Shown here: positions 7,376 to 64,000 of the stretch, piece by piece
Numbering within the stretch: position 1 is the first letter of the stretch
Layout of the letters: every line of letters begins with the position of its first letter
Assembly: GCF_004364165.1 (NCBI RefSeq)
Contig: NZ_SOAY01000010.1
Span: 1,515,098-1,579,097, forward strand
Reading direction: 5' to 3'
DNA length: 64,000 nt
Origin: Maribacter spongiicola
GTDB lineage: Bacteria; Bacteroidota; Bacteroidia; Flavobacteriales; Flavobacteriaceae
Made by a program: the position numbers and the translations under genes
The notes under the pieces: generated by a model
The model's input: the letters and a program-made list of their open reading frames with translations, nothing else
Database searches by the model: none
Told to the model about the DNA's origin: nothing

Positions 7376-7393
7376 AATGGGAAATTAGTACTT

Positions 7394-8674: not shown

Positions 8675-8683
8675 CTGAAGATT

Positions 8684-10057: not shown

Positions 10058-10067
10058 GTAGAACTAT

Positions 10068-11216: not shown

Positions 11217-11230
11217 AAACAACCAAAATT

Positions 11231-42702: not shown

Positions 42703-43473
42703 TTAAGGTCTTACAATGGTACTTCTTTCTGCATTTTGTGCTTCTGTCAATGTTTTTCCTTCTATGAACAAAACAAAACGGTCTAAAGCATGAAATTTAG
42801 AACGACCGGAAACTTCCATGGTATAAATGCCCGGCTCATCAAATTTTACGAAAATATTATGTGGATCGTTATCGCTAGTATTCGAACGCCAAAACCATTC
42901 ACCTACACGGTTCATATAAATTTTAAACCAACCGTCTGTGCTACTGCCCTCAGGAACCGGAGTTTTTCCAAGCCCTTTCGGATAAACAGTGCTGCCATCT
43001 CGCCGACCAAAGAAATCAGTGGCATCTGAAAAGCGCAACCAAGAATCATTTCCCTCAGATTGACTATCACCTTCAGATATTCTTGAACGCCAAAAAAACT
43101 GATAGGTACCTGGGATAGTGATATTTAATTTATAAACTAAAGTACCTACGCCTGGTGTATTAAAATTGTCTTCTTTATTCCAACGTAGGTAACCTGTACC
43201 TTCAAAATCATTAATTGTATCTCCACGTTCCCATTCTAAATCTCCTTCTACAGTTTCGAATTCGACACTTATGATACCATCAGTTTCCAAATAGCTAATA
43301 ACATCAAGATCACTGTTCGGTGTTTTAGGGTCGTCCATTATTTCTTCTTCTGTGGTATTAGAATCTCCCGTCATCTCCACTATAGGCTCTTCTGTATTGA
43401 GATCAGAAATACACGAGAAATTTAAAGTCAAAAGGCAGGTTAGTAAGCCTATTCTAAAAAAGTAAATTTTCAT
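42703..43473 (-). CDS. Putative surface glycan-binding lipoprotein, unknown family
   Basis: A 256-residue protein I do not recognise as a named family. It has a lipoprotein signal (LNFSC, Cys21), an acidic linker rich in Glu, Asp and Thr (about 25-57), then one beta-rich domain. The segments GTGYLRWNKEDNF, YKLNITIPGTYQFFWRSRIS, DSWLRFSDATDFFGRR and VKFDEPGIYTMEVSGRSKFHALDRFVLF resemble the carbohydrate-binding beta-sandwich appended to GH115-type enzymes. The many exposed Trp residues fit glycan binding. Its ATG overlaps the GH78 stop codon by 4 bp, so the two are probably coupled. It occupies the slot where many loci encode a surface glycan-binding protein. Confidence 0.8.
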   Translation of the reverse strand: MKIYFFRIGLLTCLLTLNFSCISDLNTEEPIVEMTGDSNTTEEEIMDDPKTPNSDLDVISYLETDGIISVEFETVEGDLEWERGDTINDFEGTGYLRWNKEDNFNTPGVGTLVYKLNITIPGTYQFFWRSRISEGDSQSEGNDSWLRFSDATDFFGRRDGSTVYPKGLGKTPVPEGSSTDGWFKIYMNRVGEWFWRSNTSDNDPHNIFVKFDEPGIYTMEVSGRSKFHALDRFVLFIEGKTLTEAQNAERSTIVRP

Positions 43474-46325
43474 CTTTTGTAGCTTATTTGGTAATCACCC
43501 GACCCTAATCTTACTTGATTTTCGGTTGTAGTTTCTTGGTGAAATTTTTTCCAATCGGTACCATTAATACTTAAACTATTTCTTTGATTTTCGTTTAATG
43601 GTAATAGTGCGGTTGTATTGAACGGTACGTTCAATTGCATTATAAAAGTTCCATCTTCTAAAGACCATTTAGAATCGATATTTCCATATGGTGTTGGCAC
43701 AGAAACTGCTGTATGGGTTACTGTTTTTGGGAATTTTGGGTCTACAATGAATTCTTTATAGCCTGGTTTGTCCTTAGATGATTTTATACCTCCTAAAGAT
43801 TCGTAGAAATATGCTGCGAAACCACTATGCATAGGGTGATTTAATGAATTTGTAGGGCCTTCCATTTTCTCCCATTCAAATTGTCGTTCGGGCCATGTTG
43901 TAAATCCTGAATTCATGACGTATGTTTGACTAGGAAACTCAGGTGTCGTTAGAATTTCATAAGCTAAATCCTCTTTACCGTACTTGTTCAAAACAGTATA
44001 GATATATCTGTTACCATGAATACCTGTGGCGTGATGCCCACCCTTAACTTCGGTTATATTATGTGCTAGACCGTTCACTACTTTTTCTATATCGTTTTCT
44101 GGTACCATACCAAACTGCAAAGCTTGTACGGTTGCGGTCTGACTTTGATACCACTTATGCTCAGTGTTTGGAATATTTTTAAGATATGCCTTGTTGAACG
44201 CATTTTTTAAGGCCTCTTTTTCTTCTTTCATCTGTGCTGCAAAAGCTACATCGTCGTTCATTTTAGCAAAAGTTTCCATAATTCCCAATACATCATAAAA
44301 ATAGGCGTTAGCAGAAATGATGGGGTCGGTTTCCATGGCGCTCGGATTTAACCTTCTGTCCCACAACGGCGGACACCAATCGCCCATACCGTCTTGCATG
44401 ATTCCGTTTTCATCTTTAAATGATAGATAGAAGTTGGTTAACTCTTTCATCTCCTCGTAGTATTCCTTAACTATGGTTTCATCTCCATAATATCTATAAC
44501 TGTACCATGGTAAGTACATGGTGGCAACGCCCCAGTCTATTTTGGCGTAAGTGGATGTTCGTTTGCCAGGAGCAATCATGGTGGGTACTTGAAATTTAAT
44601 ATCTGGATTATTATGTCCTTTTGTTGGTCGCATTTGGGTGCGTATATCTTCCATGTATTTATTATAAAAATCATGCATGTCATAATTATAGAGTGCATAT
44701 TCTGCAAAAGCATGAGAATCGCCTAACCAACCACATTTTTCTCGGTGTGGACAATCTTCAGGAATACCATGTAAATTATCAACTATTGTCCACTTGCTAA
44801 TGCTATGCATCTTATTGAATAATTCATCTGAACTAGTGAAACTACCTGTTTCATTTATGTCGGTAGCTACTAGTACAGCTTTTATCATATCTGCATTTGG
44901 TTTTGAAGATACCCCCTTTACCTTCGCATATCTAAAACCGTGATAGCTGAATTTTGGCTCCCAAGATTCCGGTTCACTACTTTTACAGATATATTCATAA
45001 ATCTGTGGCATACCATTTGCTCCGCCACCTGTAGCGCCTTGAAAAATATCTGAGCCATCGGTTAAAAGTGCTTCTGTAGTAGTTACTTCAATTAACTGCC
45101 CTTCTTTTTCTTGTACATTAAGTTTAACCCAGCCTGCTATATTTTGACCAAAATCAACGATCCATTCACCATCGGCTCCTTTAAAAACCTCTTTTGGTTC
45201 TAATTCTTTCAGTTTTTTAATTGCAGGTATTTGCTGCGCACTAATTGTTTTTAATTCGGGTGTGGCTATTTTCGGGTTGCTCCAATCTTTATCATTAAAT
45301 CCTACAGTGTTCCAACCATTTATTTCGTGTCGTGCATCATAAGTATCGCCGCCGTAAATGTTGTTGAATACAATTGGTCCTGTAGATTCTTTCCATGTTT
45401 CATCTGTATAAAATTCAGCTTCTTGACCATCTGTATATGTTACTTTTATTAAAAGCTTGACGGCAGGTGGACCATAGGATAAATCTTTTTCAGATTCAGG
45501 GTCATTTTTCCATGAGATATTTTGACCATAAAATCCGTTTCCTAAAATAATACCTAAGGCGTTGGTACCTGGTTCTAGAATATCTGTAAGGTCGTAGTCT
45601 ACATAATATGCTTGCTTGTCATAATTTGATGGTGCGGGGTCTAAGACATGGTCTCCAACTTTATTTCCATTTAAGTATAGCTCATAATAACCTAAACCAC
45701 AGATATACGCTTTGGCACTTTCTATTTCTTTAGTAACATCAATTTCATTTCTAAAATAACTGGCAGCGAAACCTTTTACGGCAGTAGGTTTACTCATTTT
45801 ACCGGTTTTATACTCTCGGTACTGGTGTGGGGATGTTCTTTTGTCTTCGTTTAATGTTATCCACGCAGAAGAACCCCAGTTTTTAATGTCTATAAGCCCC
45901 ATATTAAATTGTTGAATAGAAGACCATTTTGATAGGTTTTCATCTTCGTCCCAAATAAGAACTTTCCAATAATAGGTATGTAAGGCTTCTAAAGGCTCTC
46001 CATTATATTTTACAAATGAAGATGTAGATTTTAATATTTTTCCCGAATTCCATTTATCTGCATCTTCCTCATTCAACTTTTCTTTTGAAGATGCGACCAG
46101 TATATGAAATGCAGATTGAGATTTATTAAATTCCTCTGAATCTAACTGCCAAGAAAACAACGGATGTTGATCCTCAATAGCGGTAGGGTTTTCTTTATAG
46201 TTACAAGTTAGTTTTGTGAAAATTAAAGAATCATTGCTTTTTGGCTCACTGCAAGAACAGTAAAGTACTGTAATGGCAATAGTTATTATGGGTTTCAGAA
46301 AATTTTGTTTGTAAATTTTTATCAT
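43470..46325 (-). CDS. GH78 alpha-L-rhamnosidase (lipoprotein)
   Basis: A 951-residue GH78 enzyme with a lipoprotein-type signal (YCSCS, Cys near 23-25). It has two N-terminal beta-sandwiches (NPTAIEDQHPLFSWQL; AYICGLGYYELYLNGNKVGD), then the (alpha/alpha)6 catalytic domain with the signature DCPHREKCGWLGD (524-536), whose Glu is the family's general acid position. A C-terminal beta-sandwich (TAVSVPTPYGNIDSKWSLED) follows. It removes alpha-L-rhamnose from oligosaccharides after desulfation. It is the first gene of a seven-gene operon that ends with rhamnose mutarotase, under shared element E. Confidence 0.95.
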   Translation of the reverse strand: MIKIYKQNFLKPIITIAITVLYCSCSEPKSNDSLIFTKLTCNYKENPTAIEDQHPLFSWQLDSEEFNKSQSAFHILVASSKEKLNEEDADKWNSGKILKSTSSFVKYNGEPLEALHTYYWKVLIWDEDENLSKWSSIQQFNMGLIDIKNWGSSAWITLNEDKRTSPHQYREYKTGKMSKPTAVKGFAASYFRNEIDVTKEIESAKAYICGLGYYELYLNGNKVGDHVLDPAPSNYDKQAYYVDYDLTDILEPGTNALGIILGNGFYGQNISWKNDPESEKDLSYGPPAVKLLIKVTYTDGQEAEFYTDETWKESTGPIVFNNIYGGDTYDARHEINGWNTVGFNDKDWSNPKIATPELKTISAQQIPAIKKLKELEPKEVFKGADGEWIVDFGQNIAGWVKLNVQEKEGQLIEVTTTEALLTDGSDIFQGATGGGANGMPQIYEYICKSSEPESWEPKFSYHGFRYAKVKGVSSKPNADMIKAVLVATDINETGSFTSSDELFNKMHSISKWTIVDNLHGIPEDCPHREKCGWLGDSHAFAEYALYNYDMHDFYNKYMEDIRTQMRPTKGHNNPDIKFQVPTMIAPGKRTSTYAKIDWGVATMYLPWYSYRYYGDETIVKEYYEEMKELTNFYLSFKDENGIMQDGMGDWCPPLWDRRLNPSAMETDPIISANAYFYDVLGIMETFAKMNDDVAFAAQMKEEKEALKNAFNKAYLKNIPNTEHKWYQSQTATVQALQFGMVPENDIEKVVNGLAHNITEVKGGHHATGIHGNRYIYTVLNKYGKEDLAYEILTTPEFPSQTYVMNSGFTTWPERQFEWEKMEGPTNSLNHPMHSGFAAYFYESLGGIKSSKDKPGYKEFIVDPKFPKTVTHTAVSVPTPYGNIDSKWSLEDGTFIMQLNVPFNTTALLPLNENQRNSLSINGTDWKKFHQETTTENQVRLGSGDYQISYKR

Positions 46326-46435: not shown

Positions 46436-46482
46436 CTAAAATAATTTAAAACCCCTGTTTTAGTATCCTGTACTATAGGGCA
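46436..46482 (-). promoter_or_regulatory. GH78 operon promoter with shared regulatory element (site E)
   Basis: On the gene strand TGCCCTATAGTACAGGATAC spans 46482-46463. A 19-bp spacer follows, then TATTTTAG at 46443-46436. The central part, CCTATAGTACAGG, is palindromic at all but one pair. The other sites do not share that symmetry. Confidence 0.75.
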
Positions 46483-46672: not shown

Positions 46673-47773
46673 TTAAACTCTTTCTAATTTCATAGGATAA
46701 GTATTATTTGCATTCCATTGGCATACATATAAATTTTCATCATTGTCAACACATACATCATGGCAATGTTTGAAAATTTCATCCTTTTGAACCATTCTTT
46801 GTAATTGTCCATTTTTATAATGAGGTTCAACACCGCCTGGGTTTGAAACTACTTTGCCGTTTTTATCTAAAATGGTAACAAAACCAGATTTTGGACTTGT
46901 TCGTGTTGGGTGTGTATTCATATCACCTTCTTCAAAATCGGTTTCAGAAGACCAACATACACCCGAATATAAATTGCTATTATGAATTACAGGGCGACAA
47001 ACAAATGCACCGGGTACATCTATTTGTTCGATAAAAATACCATCGAGGGTAAAACGCTTAAAACAATTGGTTGCTCTAGAAGTTATCAGTAGGGTAGGTT
47101 GTCCTTTTTCTCTGTAATCTATGCAAATGCCATGTGCTGTTTGAAATTGATGTTGACCGATACCTCGGCCTTCCCCAATTTTACGTATAAATTCGCCGTC
47201 TTTAGTAAATTGTAAAATGTAGTTCGATCCATAACCATCCGCAATATAGATGTCTCCGTTTGGGGCAATGGCGCTCTCTGTTGGTTTAAATGCATCATTC
47301 TCATTATAGGCACCATACTTAGACGGATGCTCAATTATCATTAATTCTCTACCGTTTGTAGTGGTTTTGATAAGGCTTTCTCCGTTAGTATCACATATAA
47401 ACAAGAAGTCTTCCGAGCCATCATTCCATAAAGTTAAACCATGACCGCCGTTATAGCGAATACCCCAAGAATCTAAAAGTTTGCCAGATTTATCATAAAT
47501 TAAAATATTATTATGGGTATCGTCACCGACCATTATGAGTCGGCCTCGAGAATCCATAACCATTTCATGACAGTTTTTTATAGGCGTACGGCTTCTGTCC
47601 AAAACTCCCCAATCTTTATGTACACGGTACTTAAAATCACCATGGCCAATAACAGTTTGGTATAATTTAGGTTTCGATTTTATGATATTAAAATGCGGAA
47701 CTATCACTAAGCCTAGACCAGCTTTCGCAGACTTATTTAAAAAATATCTTCTATTAATTTCTAACTTCGCCAT
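46673..47773 (-). CDS. NHL-type six-bladed beta-propeller protein with twin-arginine signal
   Basis: A 366-residue protein. The N-terminus has a twin-arginine-type signal (NRRYFLNKSAKAGLGLVIVP, Arg8-Arg9), which suggests export in folded form. The rest is built of NHL-like blades: CHEMVMDSRGRLIMVGDD, NGGHGLTLWNDGSEDFLFICD, PTESAIAPNGDIYIADGYG, FQTAHGICIDYREKG and KHCHDVCVDNDENLYVCQW. It has conserved His and Asp in turn positions as in peptidyl-amidating-lyase-like propellers, but no catalytic role can be assigned. It is the third gene of an operon with a DUF1501 protein and a DUF1549/DUF1553 cytochrome, 5 bp after the DUF1501 gene. Confidence 0.8.
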   Translation of the reverse strand: MAKLEINRRYFLNKSAKAGLGLVIVPHFNIIKSKPKLYQTVIGHGDFKYRVHKDWGVLDRSRTPIKNCHEMVMDSRGRLIMVGDDTHNNILIYDKSGKLLDSWGIRYNGGHGLTLWNDGSEDFLFICDTNGESLIKTTTNGRELMIIEHPSKYGAYNENDAFKPTESAIAPNGDIYIADGYGSNYILQFTKDGEFIRKIGEGRGIGQHQFQTAHGICIDYREKGQPTLLITSRATNCFKRFTLDGIFIEQIDVPGAFVCRPVIHNSNLYSGVCWSSETDFEEGDMNTHPTRTSPKSGFVTILDKNGKVVSNPGGVEPHYKNGQLQRMVQKDEIFKHCHDVCVDNDENLYVCQWNANNTYPMKLERV

Positions 47774-47778
47774 GATAA

Positions 47779-49263
47779 TTATGCATTTTTAGTACCTTGT
47801 TCTTTTGAGCTAAACGTTTTGCCGAATAAATCTAAAATAGGTTCTCCTTTACCGTCTGGTGTAGTGTAAAATGGTCTACTTTCAATCTCGTAATGTGTTT
47901 GAGAATCTATGCCTAAAGCATGATAGATCGATTGATGTACCTGATCTATAACAACAGGTTTTTCAATAGAAACACATGGTCTTTCATCTGCTGTTTTTCC
48001 ATAGACTAGACCTTTTTCAATACCACCTCCCCACATTAATATGGAACCTCCATCAGTAAAATGACGGTGCATGCCATAATGTTTAACTTCTTGAATTACA
48101 TCTGGTTGATTTCTTGCCTGATCTTTAACTTCTTCGCCCGGTCTACCTTCCATAAGAGCATCTCTACTAAATTCGCTTGCCAAAATAATCAGGGTTTTAT
48201 CTAAATGACCAGATTCCTCTAAATCTTTAATTAATTGAGCTACAGGTTTATCAATTAGAGCTTTCATTTGTTTTGCACGGGTATGACCATTTGCATGGGT
48301 GTCCCAGCCTATAAAAGGTTCGTATTCGGTAGATACACTAATAAACCTACCACCATTCATAGCTAAACGTTTTGCTAATAGGCACCCTAAACCAAAGCGA
48401 CCGGTGTTGTAAGTGTCGTACACTTCTTTTGGTTCTTGAGATAGATCAAATACTTTAGCTTCTGGTGAATTCAACAACATGTACGATTGTTCCATCGACC
48501 TCATTAAAGACTCGCGTTGATAATCGCTTGCCTGCTCCATAACGTTACTTTTGTTCGCAAGCTCTTTGTATAACTTATATCGTGCCTCAAAGCGTTTAAG
48601 TGACATACCTTGTGGCGGTCGTACACTATCTAAACCTTCTGAAGGGTCAGGAATTAAAAACGGACCATATTCATTGCCTAGAAATCCTGCCGTATGAAAA
48701 GCTTTCAGTTCTTCTGCTTCGCCCATGGTAAAACGTTGCCCTATAGAAATAAATGGAGGAATTACAGGGTTGATCGGTCCAAGTTCTTTTGCGATCCATG
48801 CACCAATATGTGGAGCTTGTACAGACTGTGGTGGCTCATAACAGGTATGCCAATGAAACTGATGTCTGGTGTGTAAAATATGACCTAGATCTGCAGCTTT
48901 GTACGATTTAATAATAGCACCTTTATCCATTACATTACCGATGGACTGTAAGCCTTCAGAAAATTCTAAACCATCTACTGCAGTCGGGTGTTTAGGAAAA
49001 GTGCTTAGCACTTTATTAATATTCAAACCTTTCTCAAAAGGTGCGTAAGCTTTTGGGTCAAATGTTTCGGTATGTGCCATGCCACCGGCCATCCATAGTA
49101 AAATAACACTATCTGCTGTTGCCGCTATTTTTTGAACATCTGGTGAGCAAGAACTTAAAAAACTTGCGATAGGTATGGTCGTCGCTGATGCCGCAAGACT
49201 TGCGGCAGACATTTTTTTTATAAACTCTCTTCGAGAATTTTGCGTTTCAAAGCTATTCTTCAT
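47779..49263 (-). CDS. DUF1501-family exported protein (sulfatase/phosphatase-like fold)
   Basis: About 494 residues from the ATG at 49263. The frame extends to 49284, but the later start gives a compact Tat-type signal (SRREFIKKMSAASLAASA, ending before a Cys in LSSC). DUF1501 proteins are distant relatives of alkaline phosphatases and sulfatases. Here the family blocks VILLWMAGGMAHTETFDPK, HTRHQFHWHTCYEP, WDTHANGH and LIILASEFSRDALMEGRPG are visible, with Asp/His metal-ligand candidates. There is no C-x-P-x-R formylglycine motif. In Planctomycetes these genes are nearly always paired with DUF1549/DUF1553 genes, as here (21 bp apart). Biochemical function is not established. Confidence 0.88.
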   Translation of the reverse strand: MKNSFETQNSRREFIKKMSAASLAASATTIPIASFLSSCSPDVQKIAATADSVILLWMAGGMAHTETFDPKAYAPFEKGLNINKVLSTFPKHPTAVDGLEFSEGLQSIGNVMDKGAIIKSYKAADLGHILHTRHQFHWHTCYEPPQSVQAPHIGAWIAKELGPINPVIPPFISIGQRFTMGEAEELKAFHTAGFLGNEYGPFLIPDPSEGLDSVRPPQGMSLKRFEARYKLYKELANKSNVMEQASDYQRESLMRSMEQSYMLLNSPEAKVFDLSQEPKEVYDTYNTGRFGLGCLLAKRLAMNGGRFISVSTEYEPFIGWDTHANGHTRAKQMKALIDKPVAQLIKDLEESGHLDKTLIILASEFSRDALMEGRPGEEVKDQARNQPDVIQEVKHYGMHRHFTDGGSILMWGGGIEKGLVYGKTADERPCVSIEKPVVIDQVHQSIYHALGIDSQTHYEIESRPFYTTPDGKGEPILDLFGKTFSSKEQGTKNA

Positions 49264-49284
49264 TTTAATAAAGTTTATATGCAA

Positions 49285-52119
49285 TTAATTAATGAATTGA
49301 AATTCTGGAGACGTTAGAACCGACCAAAATATATCTTGTAGATTTTCTGTACTTGGTTCACTTCCTAAGGCATTGAGTAAAATATTTTTCTCATCGCTTG
49401 ATGGTAACCTTCCTAGTAATTTTTGGTAAACATTATCAACAATTAAAGTACTGTTGTGATTATATTCTTTCAACCATTTTTTTGATCCTTGTTCTAGTTT
49501 TTTATTGAAAAAGGCACCATTTGTGAGCTCTAGAGCTTGCAATAATGTCGCTTGTTCTTCTCTTTTTGAAATTACAATTTCTCGACTTGGTCTACCTAAA
49601 GCTTTCATGAAAGGATGTTGTTTGACAAGGCTCGCTCTTGCAAAACTTTTTTGATAGTCATTAAATGTAAAATCCATTAGTTTTCCCCAATTATCAGTCC
49701 CGTAGTTATGAACTTCTAGCCATTTACTATCATTAAAATCTACGCTCGACCAGTTTGTTGAAGGTCCAACATTTGTGCTTACCCAAGTTTTATCTGAAAA
49801 TAACTTAACTGATTTACCATCTTTAAAATTAATTTTCATTGCAAACAATAGACTTGCCGGATTATCTATTTTACCTTCATTAATACCTTTTATGGCAATT
49901 GTATTTTTACCCGCTTTTAAATGAGTTGTTATATCGAATTTACCTACTTCTGTCCATTCACTTCCTTGTCCTATTTTTTTGCCATTTATAAAAAGCTCAT
50001 AAACGTCGTCAACAGAGATTAATGCTGAGGCATTGGTAATCTGTTTATGATCAAGTTTGAAATTCTTTCTAAAATATCGTGCGCCTGGTAGTGGAAGTAC
50101 GGTATTTGTTAAGTCTTTTTCATGATGCCAAACTCGTAGTGCTGGCATTTTCTCTTCGTTAGGGTTAAATTCTACTGCAGTATATATGGGTGTTATTACC
50201 TGACTAATAGCATCTGAAAATTGCTCTGCACTAATTCGTCTTAATAGAGGTCCTTTAAAAACATATTCGTTTTTTACACTTGCAGCACTAATATAATTTA
50301 CAGTAGGTAATTGGTATGCTTTAGAAGTCATTATTTGTTTGATGAGATGCTTTAAATCTGCACCTGAATCAATAAAATCTGCCGATAGCCAATCTAGCAA
50401 CTCTCCATCCCATGGTGCATTGTCCATTTCATCAACGGGTTCAATGATACCTCTACCCATTAACCTGTCCCAAATACGGTTGGTTATGGTTCTGTACAAC
50501 CTACCGTTATCTCGGCTTATCATTACCTCAGATAATTTTAGCAATCTATCATCTATAGTTTCTCCGTCGACATTTCCTAGCTCAGGATATAGAAAATTTA
50601 CTTTAGCTATTTTGCCTATTGGTATATCACATCTATTTAATTCTAGAGGTTCTTTTGCGAAAATAGAAGCAAAGCCATATACCTGATCTAAGGTCAAGTT
50701 ACTTACAAAACTATTGTGGCATGAAGCGCATTTTACGTTAGTGCCCAATAGAGATTGACCAATATTTTGTGCTGCCTGCATTTCTGTGGTTTGGCTAGCA
50801 TTAACTAGACCTCGCCATTCTATACCTTTTATAAAACCTTCAGAATCTTTATTCGGATTCATCAGCTCACTTACCATTACATCATATGGTTTGTTCTTCT
50901 GTAAAGCATCATACAACCAACCTGTAATTTGTGAACGTCCTCTTGTTATAAAACCTGTACCACTGTAATCATTTCGTAATAGATCATTCCAAAAGCTTAA
51001 CCAATGCTGTGTATAGTTATCAGAATCACTTAATAATTCATCTATTAAAAGTTCTCTTTTTTTCGGGTCAGTATCTTCAATAAAGGTATTTATAGCCGCT
51101 GGTTCTGGTAATAGCCCTATAATATCTAGATATGCACGTTTTATAAAAAACCTGTCGTTTACCGACGTTGACCATTCTATATTTTCTTTTGCAAAATATG
51201 AGTCAACCAATTTGTCTACCGGGTGGTTTACATTTGTTGCAGTGGGTAAATCTGGTTTAATAAGCGCAAGTTCAGCTTCAGGAAATACTTTAAGGGCTTG
51301 ATCAGACCAATGTGCACCTTCATCGATCCAAAGTCTAATAAGTTCTATTTCATCTGCAGTAAGTAGTTTGCCTTTAGTTGGCATAACATCTTTATGACCG
51401 GCCGGAAGAATAATTCGTTTATAGATTTCACTTTCTTTTGCATTACCGGGCACAACTGCCAACCCAGTTTCACCACCTTTAAAGACACCGGCTTTATTTT
51501 CAAGAACTAATTCACCTTTCTTTTTGTTCTCTCCATGACACTGGTAACACTTATGGGCAAAAATACCCCTTACCTCAAGATTTAATTTATCTTTTTGTAA
51601 GATAGAAAGCGAATCGGCAGATTTTAAGTCCTGTAATAATGCAACTGTATTTTCGTTGTCATATTTTGTATTATTACTTGGTAATACAGCTGTTAAATAA
51701 TCTTCTCCATGTGTAAGGTTTGCGCCTAAATGACCTGCTACGCTAAGTAAAACAATTGTTATGGTAAAGATGGATCTATAAAGGGTTAGTTTTTTTGATT
51801 CACGTAAACTGTAATTTAAAATTATTGCCGTTGCTAGAGCGAGTACAGCGGTAGCTATACCAGTATTTTGATGGTTAACTACTAAATTACCGGCATAATC
51901 TTCTTGTGTTTTTAATAACCATCCTACTATAGCAGAGAGTATAGCAAAAAAAGCACCAATATATACCATGAACTTAATACCTTCTCTAAGAGAATTTCTT
52001 TTTCCTTTAAGGGTAAGTAGTTCTAAAACAAAAGAAACAACCAATAATCCTATAGGAAAATGTACCAGCAAAGGGTGTAGCCTGCCCAAAAGTTGAAGTA
52101 TCCAATTTGAAGTTTCCAT
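49285..52119 (-). CDS. Fused DUF2231-like membrane / PSCyt1 cytochrome / DUF1549-DUF1553 protein
   Basis: A 944-residue protein. Residues 1-145 form about four membrane helices with HPLLVHFPIGLL and GHLGANLTHG, as in DUF2231. A planctomycete-type cytochrome domain has haem motif CYQCH (191-195) and the possible axial Met in DVMPTKG (about 246). DUF1549 (about 300-500) contains a second CxxCH, CASCH (464-468). DUF1553 lies at about 530-650 and resumes at about 820-944. A lectin-like beta-sandwich is inserted between (about 672-815, with YELFINGKKIGQGSEW). It is thus a membrane-anchored haem protein with a probable glycan-binding module. It is first in an operon under shared element F. Its function is unknown; electron transfer to or from a carbohydrate is inference. 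Confidence 0.85.
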   Translation of the reverse strand: METSNWILQLLGRLHPLLVHFPIGLLVVSFVLELLTLKGKRNSLREGIKFMVYIGAFFAILSAIVGWLLKTQEDYAGNLVVNHQNTGIATAVLALATAIILNYSLRESKKLTLYRSIFTITIVLLSVAGHLGANLTHGEDYLTAVLPSNNTKYDNENTVALLQDLKSADSLSILQKDKLNLEVRGIFAHKCYQCHGENKKKGELVLENKAGVFKGGETGLAVVPGNAKESEIYKRIILPAGHKDVMPTKGKLLTADEIELIRLWIDEGAHWSDQALKVFPEAELALIKPDLPTATNVNHPVDKLVDSYFAKENIEWSTSVNDRFFIKRAYLDIIGLLPEPAAINTFIEDTDPKKRELLIDELLSDSDNYTQHWLSFWNDLLRNDYSGTGFITRGRSQITGWLYDALQKNKPYDVMVSELMNPNKDSEGFIKGIEWRGLVNASQTTEMQAAQNIGQSLLGTNVKCASCHNSFVSNLTLDQVYGFASIFAKEPLELNRCDIPIGKIAKVNFLYPELGNVDGETIDDRLLKLSEVMISRDNGRLYRTITNRIWDRLMGRGIIEPVDEMDNAPWDGELLDWLSADFIDSGADLKHLIKQIMTSKAYQLPTVNYISAASVKNEYVFKGPLLRRISAEQFSDAISQVITPIYTAVEFNPNEEKMPALRVWHHEKDLTNTVLPLPGARYFRKNFKLDHKQITNASALISVDDVYELFINGKKIGQGSEWTEVGKFDITTHLKAGKNTIAIKGINEGKIDNPASLLFAMKINFKDGKSVKLFSDKTWVSTNVGPSTNWSSVDFNDSKWLEVHNYGTDNWGKLMDFTFNDYQKSFARASLVKQHPFMKALGRPSREIVISKREEQATLLQALELTNGAFFNKKLEQGSKKWLKEYNHNSTLIVDNVYQKLLGRLPSSDEKNILLNALGSEPSTENLQDIFWSVLTSPEFQFIN

Positions 52120-52151: not shown

Positions 52152-52198
52152 TAAACTTATCAATATTTTTTTATGGCACTATCCTGTAGTATCTGTAT
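52152..52198 (-). promoter_or_regulatory. DUF1549/DUF1501 operon promoter with shared regulatory element (site F)
   Basis: On the gene strand ATACAGATACTACAGGATAG spans 52198-52179. A 19-bp spacer follows, then TAAGTTTA at 52159-52152. The transcript would begin about 27 bp before the ATG at 52119. Confidence 0.75.
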
Positions 52199-52331: not shown

Positions 52332-53774
52332 TTAATCAAACCACTCTTTCTCATAAATGGTACGCATTCTATCCAAATCTTGTTTAAAGTTGGGGTCATT
52401 GGTAAAGTGAGTAGTCTCAAATGGGTCTAGTTCTAAATTTAATAATTGCTCTTCAATGCCATCTGCATCATAGCGAATGTATTTTATCCCATTAGTATCA
52501 ATAACCATTTTGCCTATTTCACTTTCAACACCCAGGGTTTCTCGCCATTTAACATTTTTACCTTCTAACAGTGGTCTTAGGCTTTTACCTCTTACGTCTG
52601 AAATACCAGTAATATTTGCATAATCGCAAACGGTAGGTAGTATATCTAAACCGTTTGAAATCAAATTTTGATCATTAATTAGACCTTTTGGAATATGGTT
52701 TTTCCACATTGCCAATAAGGGAATATTAGCTGATTCTTCATAAAGGGTAGATTTATGCTCCATACGGTGACTTGCACTCATTTCGCCATGGTCGCTTGAA
52801 AATATTATTAAGGTATTTTCTTCTTGTCCGCTTGCTTTTATGGCATTTAATAATAATTGAACTTCTTTATCTAATACTTCGGTTAGCCTATGATATGCAT
52901 ACCTATGGTGTTTCCAATCATTTTCTGTAAAATTCTCTCTGGCATTCTTTCTGAAGGGTCTGTCATTAATTAATTTTTTGATGGCCCTTGGCTCATCCTT
53001 TTGAGGTTCAAAGTTGGGGGGTAAAGGCGGGCAGTAATCTGTGTAAAATTCAGTTTCACTGATGCCCTCCGGTATTTTCATGGCATTATTCAAGGTAGCT
53101 ATTTCAACTTCTGCGCGTTTAAGTAATAAGGCATCATTTGCACTTGTTGCCTTTTCTCTTAAGGCCATGTAGCATATATCATGTGGGTTTATTAATGATA
53201 CCACCATAAAATAAGGTTTTTTATGCTCCTCATTAATAATTTCTACCGCTTTATTTACCATTTGGCCCCTTTCATTGTCAGAGAATTTGTTAAAACCTAG
53301 TGTATTAGGTGTTAAAGATTCGGGCAAATGCTCCTTGCCTCCAAAATACAATTCATAATTCGCCTTTTTAAGAAAAGATGCAATGGTCGTATTTTTTACT
53401 TCTGACGATACCTCAGGTATTTTCATAGAAGCTCTGTTCTCCCTAACTTCATTTCCCTGATTATCTTTAAAATAACTTGGAAATCTACCTGTCATTAAGC
53501 TTACCCTTGCCGGAGAGCAAACCGGGTTGGTCGTATATGCTTTTGTAAACCTAATACCGTTATTGGCTATATAATCTATAGCTGGCGTATTTAAATATGT
53601 GTTGCCGGCGCAACTCATCATGTTTGCACTCATTTGATCAACATAAATGTAAATTATGTTGGGTTGCCCATTTTCAACCGACTTGTTTTTATCTTGACAT
53701 GAGGCAATTAGTGAAATAAAAATGGTAAAGAATACTGTTTTTATTTTTTTCGGATATTTAATACAGATCATCAT
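52332..53774 (-). CDS. Type-I sulfatase (lipoprotein), CSPAR
   Basis: A 480-residue arylsulfatase-like enzyme with a lipoprotein signal (SLIASC, Cys26). The formylglycine site is CSPARVSLMTGR (86-97), and VDQMSA (45-50) supplies the first metal Asp. FSSDHGEMSASHRMEHKST provides the second Asp/His metal ligands. A C-terminal block reads LLNLELDPFETTHFTND. It removes sulfate esters, presumably from rhamnose-3-sulfate or a similar residue. It is the last of three sulfatase genes behind GH106 and starts 6 bp after the previous gene. Sulfatase subfamily cannot be fixed by eye. Confidence 0.94.
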   Translation of the reverse strand: MMICIKYPKKIKTVFFTIFISLIASCQDKNKSVENGQPNIIYIYVDQMSANMMSCAGNTYLNTPAIDYIANNGIRFTKAYTTNPVCSPARVSLMTGRFPSYFKDNQGNEVRENRASMKIPEVSSEVKNTTIASFLKKANYELYFGGKEHLPESLTPNTLGFNKFSDNERGQMVNKAVEIINEEHKKPYFMVVSLINPHDICYMALREKATSANDALLLKRAEVEIATLNNAMKIPEGISETEFYTDYCPPLPPNFEPQKDEPRAIKKLINDRPFRKNARENFTENDWKHHRYAYHRLTEVLDKEVQLLLNAIKASGQEENTLIIFSSDHGEMSASHRMEHKSTLYEESANIPLLAMWKNHIPKGLINDQNLISNGLDILPTVCDYANITGISDVRGKSLRPLLEGKNVKWRETLGVESEIGKMVIDTNGIKYIRYDADGIEEQLLNLELDPFETTHFTNDPNFKQDLDRMRTIYEKEWFD

Positions 53775-53780
53775 GAAATT

Positions 53781-55214
53781 TTATTTGTTTAAAAAATCTT
53801 TGCCCCAATTTTGTCTTAATTCTTTAGAAAGTAAATTAACTTTTTGATGATATTCAGGTTTCTCTGCCAAATTATCAAGTTCTAAAGAATCTGTTGAATG
53901 GTCAAATAACATTCTTGCGTAGGCAGTACCATCATCTTTGATCCATTCAGTATAAAATAGATCACCTTTGATATATGTAACGGCATCTTTGAATTTACTT
54001 ACTGCCCAATCTTTACTAGATTTTTCACCTTTTAAAAGAGGGACAAAACTTTTGCCTTGTACGGTTTTTGGAACATTTTCAATATCAACAAGTTCTGCAA
54101 TACTTGGGTAAATATCTATATATTCTGTTATAGCATCTGTTGTTTGTCCACTGGTTTTTCCTGGAACTTTTAGTAGTAAGGGTGTTCTTAAGGCCGTTTC
54201 AAATGTGACATGTTTACACCATAATTTATGATCTCCTAAATTCCAACCATGATCTCCCCAAAGAACAACTATTGTATCATCTTCTAAATCTAAGCGTTTT
54301 AACTCGTCTAATACCAAACCAATTTGCGCATCAACATAACTTACGCAAGCATAATAACCATGTATGAGTTCTTTTGCTAAATCATCAGGGATTTCCCCAC
54401 TTTTAGGAATGTTGCCATAGTTGCGCAATTCTCCAAAATTATGAAAGGCTTCACTAGGTGTAGTTTCTGGTTGTACATAACTTTGAGGTAATTCTATTTC
54501 GTTTCTATCATAAAGGTCCCAATATTTTTTTGGTGCAGTAAACGGTAGGTGTGGCTTCATAAAACCTAGAGCCAAGAAAAAAGGTTTTTTCTCGTTTTTC
54601 AGCAATTTTAGCTCAGCAATACCTTTTTGGGCAATTTTACCATCAAAATAAGCGGTGTCATTAACTTCTGCCATTTCAAATGCGGTAGCTCCTGCAACAG
54701 CTAGATTGGCATTTCCGTTTTCTTCAATATTTTTTTTAAGTTGATAATTACGAATATTACCGTCAGGAAACCAAATGGCATCCCAAGCTAAACTATCATC
54801 ATCTATTTGATGATAAATTTTACCGTTAGATCGTGTTGTATAACCATTTTGTTTAAGAAACTTAGGTAATGAAGTAGCAAAGGGTACGTCCACATCTGCT
54901 CTAGTGCTATAATCAATGAAACGATTTCTTGTAGGTCTCATACCAGTAAGTATGCTTGCTCTTGATGCACCGCATACCGGTATATTACAATATGCTCGGT
55001 TAAAGACTAAACTTTCACTGGCCAATTTGTTCAAGTTTGGTGAAATTATGTGTTTGGCACCATAAAAATTTAATTCTGGGCGCAGATCATCAACTGCAAT
55101 GAACAATATGTTTTTCGGTTTTTTATCTTGGGTTACAATAGGTTTATTATTTTCACTTTTACATGAAAATAATAAGGTTGCCAAAAATAATATGATATAT
55201 AAAAATCTATTCAT
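53781..55214 (-). CDS. Type-I sulfatase (lipoprotein), iduronate-2-sulfatase-like, CGASR
   Basis: About 477 residues from the ATG at 55214, which gives a clean lipoprotein signal (LATLLFSC). The frame can extend to 55244, but that start would overlap the preceding gene. The modification site is [18 protein letters not shown], using Ala in place of Pro in the C-x-P/A-x-R motif. [13 protein letters not shown] carries the metal Asp pair. [20 protein letters not shown] and [21 protein letters not shown] are typical of the iduronate-2-sulfatase-like group. It is related to the sulfatase at 60324-61775. The DD pair and the C-x-A-x-R site suggest an active enzyme. Confidence 0.93.
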
Positions 55215-55230
55215 GTTAATTTTTTTATGT

Positions 55231-56691
55231 TTACCAATGTTCAATTATTGTATAGTCTTCTTTTTGCAATGTGTTTTTTAGTGAATCGGCAATTTGTCGT
55301 GTTGGCGTATCTTGATCCAACTTAAATCCTTTATTTCCACTAGGAGTTATAATGGGCATATTACCTGCGATTTTATTAAGAATATCGCCTTGAGAATTCA
55401 TCCAAATGAACATTTTTTTTGAAAGGGTGTCTTTTACTGATTTTAATTCTTCATCATTTGCCAAGTTGTGCTGTTCAAATGGGTCGTTCTGAATATCATA
55501 TAACTCTTCAAATGGTTCATTTTTAAATTTATTTGCCCCTCTTTTAATAAAGTAATCTACATATGTTTTTCCCGTGAGATTATTCTCTACTACTTCTAGA
55601 GAATTAAAGTTTCTAATGTATTTGTATTTCTTATTACGAATCATTCTTGAGGGGAAAATTTCTGAATTCAGTATATTTTGGTTGGTTCTAACACCGTATA
55701 CATATTCGTTTATTTCAACATCCTTACCCTGAAGGATTGGCAGAAAACTTTTGCCGTCCATATCTGGCATAGCTTTTCCGCCTGCAATATCCAAAAAGGT
55801 GGGGAGTATATCTGTGTAATGAACAAGTTGGTCAGAGACTGTGCCAGCCTTTATTACTTTTGGCCAACGCATTACTAAGGGTACTTTAAGACCAATATCC
55901 TTAACAGTGAATTTGCCAGAAACACCATGATCTGCACTATAAATAAAAAGTGTATTGTTACTTAAATACGTGTCAACTAAATTTAAAACACGTTCTAGTT
56001 GCGTATTATCTTCTTTTATACTTCTATAGTAACCTGCTTTAGACTTTACATATTCTGGGTCTGTCTTTTTATCCTCATTAAATGGATAAAATTTAATATC
56101 CTCTGCTTTAGGGTTATCAACTTCAAAATATTTTCCGTGCGGATATTTTGAGGTTATGAACATACAAAATGGTTTAGTCTTATTTTTTAAATAATTTTCT
56201 ATGCTATCTAACGGAATGTAATCTCTTGGTACGTTTTCTTTAGGTACTGGTTGCCATTCGCTATCCCATTGATAAACATTAGAGGGTTTTACATGACTTT
56301 TTCCGGCCAATACTACTTCATACCCCAATTTTTTCATGTGGTCCGTAACACTTTCCATGGTTGGTCTCGTAGCAGTATGATTGGCAAAACAGCCATTCTT
56401 TAATGGATATTTTCCTGTAAAGAGTTGAGATCTACTTGGTGCACAAATTGCTTGACCGGTAAACGCATTTGTGAACAATAAACCTTCTTGAGCTAAACGG
56501 TCTACGGCAGTTGTATGTACTTTTTCATTGCCATAACAACCATAATCATATACATCTTGGTCATCTGCCAAATAGAAAATGATATTGGGCTGAGCTGGGT
56601 TATCTAATGTTACTTTATCTATTTTATACTCCCTACATGAGGTGATAATTACGAATGCTAAAAGAATTGTTATGACTTTTGATTTTTTCAT
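55231..56691 (-). CDS. Type-I sulfatase (lipoprotein), CAPSR
   Basis: A 486-residue sulfatase with a lipoprotein signal (FVIITSC, Cys19). The formylglycine motif [14 protein letters not shown] begins at residue 83. Metal ligands are in [14 protein letters not shown] (41-54) and [18 protein letters not shown]. It belongs to the heparan N-sulfatase-like/arylsulfatase branch ([17 protein letters not shown]). It follows the GH106 gene by 28 bp. Together with the two downstream sulfatases it suggests removal of at least two differently placed sulfates before or after rhamnosidase action. Confidence 0.94.
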
Positions 56692-56719
56692 TTTACGACG
56701 CTTATTATTTACAAATTTT

Positions 56720-59700
56720 TTAATCAGTATTTAATAATTTGTTTACTGAAAACACATTAATTTGAACAGGACCCAATAGACCAGAAGTGAGTAAATTAGA
56801 ATCTTTGTCATAATGATTCCATGAAGGAAATGTGTTTCTCCCAGATGTACGTTCGGTTTTATTTTTCAACCAACTGGGTACATTCTTTAATTGTTTGCCA
56901 TTTCGTTCAATATCCAATGGTAATAACTCATCACCAATCAATCTATTTGACCAGAGATTGGTCACTTTCACTTCAATTGTGTTTTTTCCTTTTTTTACAA
57001 AACCGTCAATAACTGTTCTATAAGGAGCTTTCCATAAAGTATTTACTTTTTTACGATTTACAAATACTTCAGCTATGACTGCTACACTTCCTAAGTCGAG
57101 TTCTAAGCTTTTATCAGATTCAATATGTTGGGCAGTTAATTTAAACTCCCTCTTGTAAGATGCCGTTCCTGAAAAGTATCTTATTTTATCATTTTTATTA
57201 TTTGACCAAGAAGTTAACTGGTTATATTTATCTTGTATACTGGAACCAGATAACAACGGAAATTCTACATGCCACGAATTCGATAAATCAATGGGATCAA
57301 GAATAGATTTGACATTAATCGTTTTGGTTTTGCCAATTGTTGTTGTGTAAGTAACCTTACCGGTATACGGTGTTACCAAAGTGGTAACCTTATCTTTATA
57401 AATAAATTTTGGTTTAATTATTTCTTTTGACAGGTTTACTGTTTGACCTTCAGGTATAAAAAGTGTACGTTCTTCACCTTCTGTAATAAAGGTGATCTTT
57501 AGGGTTGTTTTTTTACCTTTAGGAATTTTATTTTCAATTAATTTATTGGTGACAGATATGTTATAATTGCCTGATAGTACTTGTTTTTGAATCTCTTGAG
57601 TAACATCATACCTTTTATAATGTTGCGGAATACCTGTGGTTTCACCTTTAAATTTACCGAATACGGCTTTGAGTACCTTTAGTTTTTGATTGCCTGCATT
57701 AATTTTAATATGTTCTCGTTCTTCTGCATACAATTGCTTTTTAGTGTCACCAAGTTGATATTCCATTCGAAACTCTTTTTTGTAGCCCATCGCTGGGTCG
57801 CAATCGCAAAAAGCACGTGACATAGTAAAATCTAATGTTCCGTTTTTTATAGCATCATTGACTTTATCGGTAATGTCAATTAACCCTTCTTGTAGAAATG
57901 TACCGTATTCTGCTTTTATAATTTTAAGATTGGGTAGTGGTTGTGCTTTGGGTTTATCTAAATCCATTTTAGTTGCTACTAAATGGTTGTTAATTATCGA
58001 TTTTTTAAAGACGATAAATACTGCTTCTTCTGAACCTAATTGTAATGGAATAGTTGTAGTGCCATCTTCATTTTCTTTAAAAACAACGATATCTTCTATA
58101 GTTCCTTTTTCTGAATTCCAAAGTTCGGGTTGTTTTCCTGTAACTCTAAAACTGGTCGTAATATCTCGTGCTTCTTTTCTGGCATTTGCTACAAAGTAAA
58201 TATCTGCTTCTTCTGTTTTTCTGTGGATGAAACCCAAGTCAGATTCATCTCCCATTATAACCTTAAAATCTGGTGTATTTTTGTTTAAAACAGTTTCTAT
58301 AGCAATATCTTTTACCAAACCTGAACTCCATAATTTTTCAACTTGTTTTTTGATATCATCATCACAATCGGGATAATTGGTTAAACTTGGCGATCGCATT
58401 GGTTTTTTACCAATAACTATAGCGCCACCATTTACCAATTCTATTACTTTTACTAAGGTCTCAGGTTTGATAAAATCAGATTCTGGTAATACTAACACCG
58501 TATAAGTATTACCAACAGATGAATAGATGATCCCGTCTTTTACAGATAGGTCTTTTAACTTATTGGCTCCAATTAAATCATAATCGAAACCCATTTCTTT
58601 GATCTGGGGTTTTATAAATCCGATATTCGGAGAAGATTCTCCTGTAAATACCAATACATCTGCAACATTATTACCTTGCTGTAACAAGTATTGAGAACGT
58701 GCCAAATAATCCATGTAGGCTTTACTTTGCGACCACCATGTATTTAATCTGTTAAAGTCAAAACCATGATAACTTAATGCTAATCCTGGTGCAAAATCCC
58801 AAGGTTGGTGTACATAGGTATGGAAAATAAAGCGTGTGATACCCTCTGCCCAAGCGCGATCTCCAATAGATTTTAAGTCAGCTGGGTGTTTGTCCCAACC
58901 ACCGATACCCGTAAAGGACTCTGCACCTACAATAGAGCTGCCGTTTAAATGTGCTATAGATGACACAAACTTGGCAGAATCAAAAAATGGATAACCACCG
59001 CTCCAGAATTCGCACATTACAATATCGCCTGTCGCGCCCACTTGCATATTGTCAAAAGGGCCCCAATAGGGTTCTACAGAAAATTTCATACCGTTTTTAT
59101 GACATAGATCTGCAAAATGGGCATAGTAGTTTTCGGCGATTAGATCGCCTATGGTTCTTCTAAAGTCCCAAAGAAAACGTTCTGAAACTTCGCCGCTTTC
59201 TACATAATAGCCTGCTAATGTTGGCAGGTAAGAGATTAAATTATAACCTCGTAAGTTTTTAAATTGTGTTTCAAAACCACTTGTCCAATTAGTGGTTTCT
59301 ACTTCGTAACTATCAATTAGGCAATTATTAACAGTAGTTCCTATTAAATTGCCTAGTTTATCAATTATTGGTTGCACGCCACCTTTCCAATACGCATCTA
59401 CTGCGCTTTTACTCATTTTATCCACTTCTAAGCCTTTAGCTTCTGGTGGTGCAGGACGATTAGTTGTACCTATAGGTGTATGCCCGAATCTTAAAATAAT
59501 CCATTCGCCTTGTGGTGCGTTCCATTCTAAAAGTCCATCTTTGGACACTTTAGAGGTGACATCTAAAACACTCTCTTTTGAAATAATAGACGCGTTAGAA
59601 ATAGATGTAGTATCAGGTAACAAATGATTACGAACACGCTCAGATAGTATTTTATAATCTAATCCACCTATTTTCTTAAATTCCTTTGGCTTTGGAAATG

Positions 59701-60196: not shown

Positions 60197-60212
60197 GTTT
60201 ACATATTTGATA

Positions 60213-60259
60213 TAAATCTACCTGAAGTACTTATCTATATCATCCTGTAATGTCATGCT
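60213..60259 (-). promoter_or_regulatory. GH106/sulfatase operon promoter with shared regulatory element (site G)
   Basis: On the gene strand AGCATGACATTACAGGATGA spans 60259-60240. A 19-bp spacer follows, then TAGATTTA at 60220-60213. This is the most divergent copy in its left half, but the TACAGGAT core and spacing are intact. Confidence 0.7.
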
Positions 60260-60323
60260 TAATTGATGTTTTAACTTTTTTAGGATATACCGTTTAATTG
60301 ACGAAGAATAAATTTGGCACCTC

Positions 60324-61775: not shown

Positions 61776-61798
61776 TTAGTACTTGGTACATCTTATCA

Positions 61799-63292: not shown

Positions 63293-63299
63293 ATTTCTA

Positions 63300-64000
63300 T
63301 TAATTTGATATCCAAAATGTTGAGCTAACTGGCTTTAACGTTAGTGTAGCTTTTGTAAACTCTTGATTGTTGAATTTTGAATGAGTAAGGTTTTTTATTT
63401 TTTCAATATGTCCATTATGCGGGTCTGCATTGAATAGGTAATGTTTACCTTGTAGCGTTACCTCAGTAGTAATGGTCTCGTCGCTAGAATTAGAAAAGAA
63501 ATAGAAATCTTTACCTTCTTTTACTTTATGTACATAGTTAAACTTACCCATGTCTGTAGACAGTTTTGGATTTGGGTTGAATGCAACATCTGTTACCATA
63601 CTTGCTTTTAGTGCTTCAGATAACGTGTTTTCATTTGGTTTCGAAATATGAATAGCTTTTCCGCCAGCCGAATTACTATTAATTTGTAATTCAGAAATTT
63701 CTATAGCTTCAGGGTTTACCTTGAAAATTTCGAGTATTAAGGACTTGACTTTGTCATCTTGCCCCATCTCAGATGATTTAAATGGTAACTGCCCGGTAGA
63801 AATTACTAAACCACCTTTGTCAAAATAGTTCTTTACCTTTTGTAATGTTTTTAATGAAATAATTTTACAGCCGGTAATTATAAGTGCATCGTATTTTTGT
63901 TTGTTCGTAACATTATTCAATATGACCGAACCTTGCTCTATTTCATATTTGTTATCTAAGAAATATTCTGGATGTATAAATGTAAAGTCCCGCCGAATAT
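63300..64000 (-). CDS. C-terminal fragment of a large enzyme, possibly GH106-like (partial)
   Basis: The frame is open from the window's right edge to a stop at 63300, giving about 233 residues of a larger protein. The TTG at 63918-63920 is not a real start, because in-frame coding sequence continues upstream (FIHPEYFLDNKYEIEQG). The visible part has a DALIITGCKIISLKTLQKV segment and GGLVISTGQLPFKS. These resemble the glutamine-amidotransferase-like domain inside GH106 and related glycosidases, where EMLVLPE-type strands precede a VNGGAIV segment. It then ends in a beta-sandwich (GKDFYFFSNSSDETITTEV). This suggests the C-terminus of a third rhamnosidase-like or related glycoside hydrolase. 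The family call is tentative. Confidence 0.6.
   Translation of the reverse strand, partial: IRRDFTFIHPEYFLDNKYEIEQGSVILNNVTNKQKYDALIITGCKIISLKTLQKVKNYFDKGGLVISTGQLPFKSSEMGQDDKVKSLILEIFKVNPEAIEISELQINSNSAGGKAIHISKPNENTLSEALKASMVTDVAFNPNPKLSTDMGKFNYVHKVKEGKDFYFFSNSSDETITTEVTLQGKHYLFNADPHNGHIEKIKNLTHSKFNNQEFTKATLTLKPVSSTFWISN

Follow-up and report, generated by a model that had tools for sequence, protein, structure and literature searches.

Planctomycete-type cytochromes, built from PSCyt and PSD domains, were described by He et al. in 2017 (PMC5615132); the portion of that paper available to us covers their domain combinations, conserved neighbour genes, fused carbohydrate-binding modules (CBMs) including Bac_rhamnosid_N, and sulfatase neighbours, and proposes a role in carbohydrate metabolism while giving the function as unknown. 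In the available parts of two older papers, DUF1501-DUF1800 operons are treated (2016; PMC5122149) and two such domains are each counted 41 times in Rhodopirellula baltica (2009; PMC2754498). Here we describe a related operon in a 64,000-nucleotide stretch of the genome of Maribacter spongiicola (contig NZ_SOAY01000010.1, positions 1,515,098 to 1,579,097), referred to below as the window. Three minus-strand open reading frames (ORFs) in the window's ORF listing lie end to end with intergenic gaps of 5 and 0 nucleotides and encode a 944-residue membrane c-type cytochrome, here named PSD944, a DUF1501 protein, and an NHL/DUF5128 propeller. The reading that we tentatively prefer, which is in part conjectural, is that this trio represents the PSCyt2/DUF1501 system in a rhamnose-regulon form and makes up a periplasmic redox complex acting on rhamnose-ended oligosaccharides.

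The trio resembles the cytochromes of the 2017 paper, as far as its available text goes, in having the same domains, a member of a neighbour gene family beside PSCyt2 (which we read as DUF1501), Bac_rhamnosid_N/CBM fusions and nearby sulfatases. It differs in that the core carries a fused DUF2231 anchor, PSD1 encloses the CBM, and an element shared with rhamnose genes is present in a member of the Bacteroidota. As in the DUF1501-DUF1800 pairs of PMC5122149, to judge from the accessible text, a Tat (twin-arginine translocation)-type DUF1501 protein stands beside a second uncharacterised protein, but the partner there is DUF1800 and here a haem protein. Short DUF1501 proteins of other Bacteroidota in our alignment are about 20% identical to that of the window. 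The accessible portions of the three papers do not contain the fused-anchor variant, the CBM67 assignment with its kept site, the rhamnose element, or the distinction of a core pair from the propeller. No functional study of DUF1501, PSCyt2, PSD1 or DUF2231 was announced in the titles or abstract openings of the literature searched, which covered few subscription papers.

The original prediction, made from the window alone, had proposed one operon encoding a haem protein, a sulfatase-fold partner and a propeller, the latter two Tat-exported, carrying the same element as the rhamnose genes and lying in a locus for a sulfated, rhamnose-rich glycan. These features are supported by the ORF arrangement, the Pfam matches, the haem motifs, the fold comparison (to the alkaline-phosphatase superfamily), the twin-arginine motifs, the places of the element in the window and in relatives, and the sulfatase, GH78, GH106, rhamnose and uronate genes. 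It had overlooked the lipobox of the DUF1501 protein and the CBM67-type character of the insert in the haem protein. To call the trio an undescribed system was too strong, since the available text of PMC5615132 already reports the domain combinations, their neighbour genes, carbohydrate modules fused to them, and sulfatases nearby.

Domain architecture of PSD944

Pfam divides PSD944 into DUF2231 (residues 14-136), PSCyt1 (191-247), PSCyt2/DUF1549 (300-489) and PSD1/DUF1553 (from 527), with both PF07583 and PF07587 above the gathering score (140.9 and 132.9 bits). Conservation was followed in 79 aligned rows, comprising the window and 78 rows of the named loci, which are the best 80 of 407 loci from a scan of named genomes. 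Both CxxCH motifs (C191-H195 and C464-H468) are kept in 79/79 rows, as are Met246 and Met447; covalent haem binding is predicted from the motif. Five DUF2231 histidines (15, 20, 83, 130 and 137) are likewise invariant in all 79 orthologue rows, and again in 11/11 sequences when the window protein is set beside ten distant paralogues chosen by BLAST alone. An AlphaFold2 model from 22 orthologues (pLDDT 53) has four helices. In this model, with basic loops after helices 1 and 3, the DUF2231 histidines would all lie near the periplasmic face, where they may hold haem b or another cofactor and provide a link to the quinone pool.

The CBM67-type module

Within PSD1 is an all-beta insert that is matched by the Pfam families Bac_rhamnosid_N and Glyco_hydro_2_N. 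When compared with solved structures by phmmer, it matched Pleurotus ostreatus lectin entries 6T0Q/6KBJ (E = 1e-23) and residues 142-294 of 3W5M (SaRha78A, a rhamnosidase of Streptomyces avermitilis; E = 4e-20), which we take to be the CBM67 of that enzyme. The calcium/rhamnose site of SaRha78A is presumably formed by D179, N180, W203, N228 and P233. Among the site-equivalent positions of PSD944, D704, W722 and P754 are each found in 79/79 rows and N747 in 76/79. Since four of the five presumed site positions are invariant or nearly so, the insert likely has a sugar site, and rhamnose may be its ligand. CBM67 depends on calcium, which two Asp residues bind, and in the Pleurotus lectin a Pro also contributes (PMC11512411, available portion). 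The likeness to the CBM67 of SaRha78A (3W5M/3W5N) and to the lectin (6KBJ, 6T0Q) consists of a sequence match of about 150 residues with kept site positions; the PSD944 module differs in sitting on a cytochrome, not on a glycosidase or lectin, and in the variability of its N180 position. The module is kept in all 79 aligned sequences, from ulvan loci or not.

The DUF1501 protein

All 55 aligned DUF1501 sequences have the twin-arginine pair R18-R19, and a lipobox-like Cys46 is present in 21/21 orthologues, so that the N-terminus is of the Tat-lipoprotein type. From the N-termini of the orthologues, translation probably starts at an internal ATG (residue 8, position 49263) rather than at the listed TTG. 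The AlphaFold2 model from the 55 sequences (pLDDT 80, pTM 0.81) gave VIA-align Z scores of 19.4 to ENPP6 (root-mean-square deviation 4.8 over 270 aligned residues), 19.1 to PafA and 17.5-18.1 to sulfatases; the 50 rows shown span Z 17.5-19.4 and exclude no family by absence. The best Foldseek match was an S1_19 sulfatase (E = 9e-8), with TM-scores of just 0.3-0.4. By hhalign, the protein aligned with the sulfatases of the loci over 113 C-terminal columns (probability 95.5, E = 1.5e-8), and the controls scored 17.4 (propeller), 0.1 (GH78) and 0.2 (PSD944); a sequence search of solved structures with DUF1501 returned chance matches only. Taken together, the model and the profile alignment predict an alkaline-phosphatase-superfamily fold.

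Residues R18, R19, G67, H138, D328, H330, F372, R374, H408 and G480 are invariant in the 55 sequences, and E371 is found in at least 90% of them. In the hhalign alignment, E371-F372 stand opposite the D-H of sulfatases. We read this pattern as a probable alkaline-phosphatase-type first metal site that is kept and a second that is lost. The C/S-x-P/A-x-R motif is present in all five window sulfatases and absent from the window DUF1501 protein; among its 55 relatives the C-x-P/A-x-R form occurs in none and the C/S form in two. The window protein, for which the original prediction had given a sulfatase fold, is therefore ruled out as a true S1 sulfatase, because both the formylglycine motif and the D-H metal pair are absent. 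It shares with ENPP6, PafA and the S1 sulfatases the fold and an Asp/His/His set resembling metal site 1, and differs from them in having no sulfatase motif, E-F for D-H at the second site, and an invariant His138 of its own.

Conservation and distribution

We searched 299 Flavobacteriaceae genomes, that of M. spongiicola included, scoring at most two candidates per genome. PSD944 had a match at E<=1e-20 in 83 of them and a full-length orthologue in 22, again including its own genome; the 21 others are at 60-72%, well separated from the partial matches, which lie at about 40%. In all 21 of these relatives a DUF1501 gene (79-90%) lies directly downstream, one of them cut by a contig end. The two genes are also adjacent in 76 of the 80 named loci, the four misses being a contig end (L135), 568 nucleotides left (L138), a DUF1501 fragment upstream (L149), and a gap just over the 400-nucleotide limit (L151). 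The propeller is present in 7/22 family genomes and 28/80 named loci; its twin-arginine motif is RR in 24 of these 28, RK in L081, L083 and L087, and neither in L099. With the propeller in so few, a fixed three-protein unit is ruled out. Gene order indicates that the conserved unit is the pair PSD944-DUF1501, which the propeller joins mainly in one clade of ulvan-type loci.

For 54 loci with long flanks, homologues of glycoside hydrolases or polysaccharide lyases (GH/PL), sulfatases or Sus proteins were found within 10 kb in 24 of 25 with a propeller and in 18 of 29 without. The reference set consisted of the genes of the window and its relatives, so that other glycan genes are uncounted. On a FastTree phylogeny of the 79 PSD944 rows, the propeller needs 6 changes, the ulvan-type genes 6 and the element 7, and 26 of 30 propeller rows fall in one clade of 27; the locus counts are therefore not independent. 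Fisher values for the loci ignore relatedness and are not independent evidence, and when propeller or element was set against ulvan genes in an independent-pairs test, the test lacked power.

Orthologues of PSD944 are spread over the Bacteroidota, some in Balneolaceae, and a 48% relative was found in a Luteitalea (Acidobacteriota) metagenome-assembled genome (MAG), as seen among the best 80 of 407 loci. A partial relative in a Maribacter MAG (L090) is 98% identical. By these comparisons PSD944 belongs to a Bacteroidota subfamily. On the strength of the Bacteroidota-wide orthologues, a recent import from Planctomycetes was rejected, although planctomycete sequences may lie beyond the best 80.

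The original prediction fared unevenly on these points. It had named a trio mostly outside glycan loci as its refutation, and loci with the propeller lie, on the contrary, almost always in glycan surroundings; the propeller itself falls outside the invariant core. The pair is found partly beyond such surroundings, judged by the reference genes. The association with ulvan is mostly confined to one clade. "Planctomycete-style", if taken to mean a foreign origin, does not suit a family with orthologues across the Bacteroidota and two further divergent systems in the same genome.

The shared upstream element

The sequence ATASTACAGGATRS occurs exactly at 5148 on the plus strand and at 15554, 20670, 46463 and 52179 on the minus strand of the window, and with one mismatch at 3765; a two-mismatch match at 62721 is inside a sulfatase gene. 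In front of PSD944 it takes the form of the operator-like ATACTACAGGATAG. The total of 7 sites at up to two mismatches is modestly above chance (shuffle mean 2.28; 7 reached by 2/100 shuffles), so that the case is carried by the exact matches, by where they lie and by the relatives. The pattern TASTACAGGATRS is found five times in the 4.46-Mb genome, all in the window locus, against 0 for the reversed control. The element pattern was derived from the window sites themselves, and so independent tests matter.

Such tests were made in relatives. Among 76 usable PSD944 upstream regions (320 nucleotides) of the named loci, the element was found in 15 at up to one mismatch and in 22 at up to two, with means of 0 and 0.6 over 40 rounds of dinucleotide shuffling. 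For 333 genes of the same loci without a reference match, the figures were 11 and 22. GH78 orthologues had the element upstream in 8/18 cases at up to two mismatches. In five of nine named loci with an extracytoplasmic function (ECF) sigma factor match (L103, L105, L126, L153, L156), the element, with 0-1 mismatch, precedes an ECF gene that heads the order ECF-FecR-SusC-SusD-PSD944. The 22 PSD944 genomes contain 33 exact matches (28 without the M. spongiicola genome) against 5 for the reversed control, and 6 of the 22 have none. In relatives, the conserved element by the GntR gene and the rhamnose operon has an extended form of about CAGTACAGTACAGGATA.

Homologues of the window GntR protein are present in 20 of the 22 PSD944 genomes and the rhaD fusion in 18. 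Upstream of rhaD the element was found at up to two mismatches in 14/17 cases (mononucleotide-shuffle mean 0.24, maximum 2). The GntR gene adjoins rhaD in 14 of the 17 fetched stretches, and 13 of those 14 carry the element. To judge from these results, the trio most likely belongs to a rhamnose regulon run by the window GntR protein, which may bind the element. A comparative study of rhamnose regulons from 2013 (PMC3870299) has, in the available form of its main text, 0 occurrences of GntR and does not mention a candidate rhamnose regulator of this type or its operator. Scans for promoters and terminators did not outperform shuffled sequences.

Proposed function and alternatives

In the preferred reading, PSD944 would be anchored in the inner membrane, its haem domains would face the periplasm, and its CBM67-type module would hold rhamnose-ended oligosaccharides imported by SusC/D. 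PSD944 would link the oxidation of a substrate to the quinone pool by electron transfer, with a putative route from the PSCyt2/PSD1 haem to the His/Met haem of PSCyt1 and on to a DUF2231 haem b. DUF1501 may contribute a metal site for handling the sugar or an ester of it, and in ulvan-type loci the propeller may add a step of substrate or product handling. Periplasmic oxidation of a rhamnose-containing oligosaccharide or of a released sugar would be the most likely chemistry. In favour of this reading are the element shared by the trio and the rhamnose operon, the largely kept site positions of the module, the invariant haem motifs and DUF2231 histidines, the adjacency of the pair, the other carbohydrate-type modules of the paralogues, and the molybdo-hydroxylase or molybdopterin oxidoreductase genes near the pair in a few relatives. 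Several observations weigh against it. The PSD944 model, at its low pLDDT, leaves the haem geometry and any catalytic pocket invisible, and no activity is reported for any of the three families in the literature searched. Position D705, the equivalent of N180, is His in 47, Asn in 14, Asp in 13 and another residue in 5 of the 79 rows. The association with ulvan is largely that of one clade; 11 of the 29 propeller-less loci have no reference glycan gene within 10 kb and still have the module; and 54 of the 76 PSD944 upstream regions lack the element at two mismatches. A shared element, moreover, does not show the substrate.

PSD944 might alternatively be an electron conduit only, a separate dehydrogenase oxidising the sugar: the GMC enzyme locally and molybdo-hydroxylases in some relatives. 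The window's GMC gene has the same element upstream, and its nearest solved relatives are the FAD subunits of fructose and glucose dehydrogenases. Such subunits work with cytochrome c subunits. The candidate molybdo-hydroxylase genes (2Fe-2S and MoCoBD) follow the pair directly in two genomes (G011, G172) and a longer operon in a third (G189), and three other relatives (G032, G037, G184) have a molybdopterin oxidoreductase gene no more than 9 kb away. However, the GMC protein starts almost at its FAD motif and has no visible export signal; the window locus has no Gluconate_2-dh3 match, the two of the genome lying elsewhere; molybdenum genes are found at only 5/80 loci; and no dehydrogenase gene accompanies the pair throughout the gene orders compared. 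We consider a division of labour of this kind unlikely. A hydrolytic system, in which DUF1501 would cleave rhamnose oligosaccharides at a phosphate or sulfate ester or at some other bond, with the haem protein as anchor, scaffold or sensor, would agree with the match of the fold to phosphodiesterases, PafA and sulfatases, with the invariance of Asp328, His330 and His408 (55/55), and with the sulfatase-rich surroundings. It is less easily reconciled with the E-F at the second metal site, the missing sulfatase motif, and haem sites too perfectly conserved for a mere scaffold, and seems to us distinctly improbable.

Least probable of those considered here is that the pair serves respiration or stress responses in general, was taken into ulvan loci by a single lineage and does not act on the glycan at all. 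Many relatives do have neighbours like dnaE or acyl-CoA dehydrogenase, the link of the trio to ulvan is mostly that of a single clade, and in the available part of PMC2754498 a Rhodopirellula PSD1/PSC2 gene is connected with a stress-induced ECF sigma factor. Yet the CBM67-type module is retained outside ulvan loci as well, 22 of the 76 PSD944 upstream regions retain the element, and where an ECF match is present the element precedes the ECF gene in five of the nine loci.

Paralogous systems

PSCyt2 matches three places in the M. spongiicola genome. The two others are divergent systems of four and five genes with PSCyt2/PSD1, DUF1501, a propeller (46-50% to that of the window) and a separate DUF2231-PSCyt1 protein; one of the two holds an extra 264-residue protein, and a GH29 fucosidase gene follows one of them. 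Since DUF2231-PSCyt1 is a separate protein there, PSD944 has the look of two otherwise separate proteins joined into one. The carbohydrate-type module varies from copy to copy: in contrast to the CBM67-type insert of PSD944, Laminin_G_3 lies between PSCyt2 and PSD1 in one paralogue, and CBM6 was found in the tandem paralogue of relatives, in the one scanned. Tandem arrangements, with a second PSCyt2/PSD1 and DUF1501 right after PSD944-DUF1501 and SusC/SusD, were seen in Pareuzebyella, Kriegella, Arenibacter and a member of the Flavobacteriaceae (L045, L048, L049, L100). A 3-keto-disaccharide hydrolase gene near a paralogous system had suggested 3-keto-glycoside oxidation as a partner pathway, which was rejected: the shared neighbour is the mannonate dehydratase UxuA, and 3-keto-disaccharide hydrolase had no match in the window proteins scanned.

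A further DUF1501 gene of the genome is at L237 (G000:C1:634000-640000), beside what is presumably a DUF1800 partner, and a GMC-like gene stands beside a Gluconate_2-dh3 match at L238. The 2Fe-2S and MoCoBD genes mentioned above were located at L056:2649-5290 and, by homology, in L060 and L045.

The surrounding locus

The features of the window are given in Table 1. Its uronate operon comprises SDR, UxuA, KduI and SDR genes, and further genes encode a GH3 enzyme, two GH88-type proteins, an Alginate_lyase-family protein (PF05426), SusD and a hybrid two-component regulator. The ORF at 25236-28247, which precedes SusD, is taken as SusC from its position. PL28 had no match among the window proteins scanned, a set that left this SusC-like ORF aside; PL28 homologues are found near the trio in relatives. 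By its predicted gene content, the locus probably serves a sulfated, rhamnose- and uronate-containing, ulvan-like glycan.

Table 1. Positions in the window of the trio, its domains, the shared element and other genes
Feature	Coordinates	Strand	Basis or remark
NHL/DUF5128 propeller ORF	46673-47773	-	366 residues; Tat-type N-terminus; Pfam match
DUF1501 ORF	47779-49284	-	501 residues; Pfam E = 1e-70
PSD944 (membrane c-type cytochrome), first gene of operon	49285-52119	-	944 residues; Pfam
DUF2231 membrane domain, residues 14-136, 4 predicted transmembrane helices	51712-52080	-	Pfam; five invariant His
PSCyt1 domain, residues 191-247	51379-51549	-	Pfam; C191xxCH195 and Met246
PSCyt2/DUF1549 domain, residues 300-489	50653-51222	-	Pfam; C464xxCH468
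CBM67-type module, residues ~660-815, within PSD1	49675-50142	-	phmmer to solved structures; site positions
Operator-like element ~73 nucleotides before PSD944	52179-52192	-	window scan
Element before GH78 operon	46463-46476	-	exact
Element between GntR gene and rhamnose catabolic operon	5148-5161	+	exact
Element before GMC dehydrogenase gene	15554-15567	-	exact
Element before uronate operon	20670-20683	-	exact
Element before TonB receptor gene	3765-3778	-	1 mismatch
Five S1-type sulfatase genes and one GH106 gene, upstream of trio	52332-63920	-	Pfam matches
GH78 alpha-L-rhamnosidase	43470-46325	-	passes NCBIfam model NF041572
Rhamnose catabolic operon	5189-12643	+	rhaD-ADH fusion, RhaI-type isomerase, FGGY kinase, FMN L-lactate-dehydrogenase-type enzyme, 470-residue protein
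GntR/Peripla_BP_3 regulator, candidate rhamnose regulator	3985-5031	-	divergent from rhamnose operon
GMC dehydrogenase	13805-15505	-	nearest solved relative: fructose dehydrogenase large subunit
TonB receptor gene	525-3632		one-mismatch element upstream

At the window end, a 206-residue ORF (63300-63920) resembles the C-terminal part of GH106 only and is barely under the Pfam cut-off. Three window proteins, of 873 (37766-40387), 256 (42703-43473) and 470 residues (11231-12643), have no Pfam match; relatives of the 256-residue protein recur in several trio loci, and relatives of the 873-residue protein in locus L116. A 638-residue protein without a Pfam family (L044:900-2813; also G045, G265 and several of L079-L101) is in many loci a neighbour of the trio and of PL28 ulvan lyases, and in locus L098 its gene has the element upstream with 1 mismatch.

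Implications

The comparisons tie this system to an element shared with rhamnose genes, to a sugar-binding module of a defined kind and to a locus of the ulvan type. Named strains are among the Flavobacteriia concerned, and Maribacter huludaoensis, Algibacter pectinivorans and Winogradskyella flava bear the trio. With element, module and locus in hand, the role of PSCyt2/PSD1 cytochromes is therefore testable with a substrate class. A more specific proposal, which we put forward as a rather doubtful one, is that DUF1501, with a single rebuilt metal site (His138, Asp328, His330, Glu371, His408), and the CBM67-carrying PSD944 may jointly perform an undescribed oxidative step, quinone-linked and periplasmic, on rhamnose-ended, possibly sulfated, oligosaccharides. 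If that were true, the same plan with CBM6 or LamG would account for the many PSCyt2/DUF1501 pairs found in Planctomycetes, Verrucomicrobia and Bacteroidota, which would then form one general family of enzymes that act as glycan oxidoreductases.

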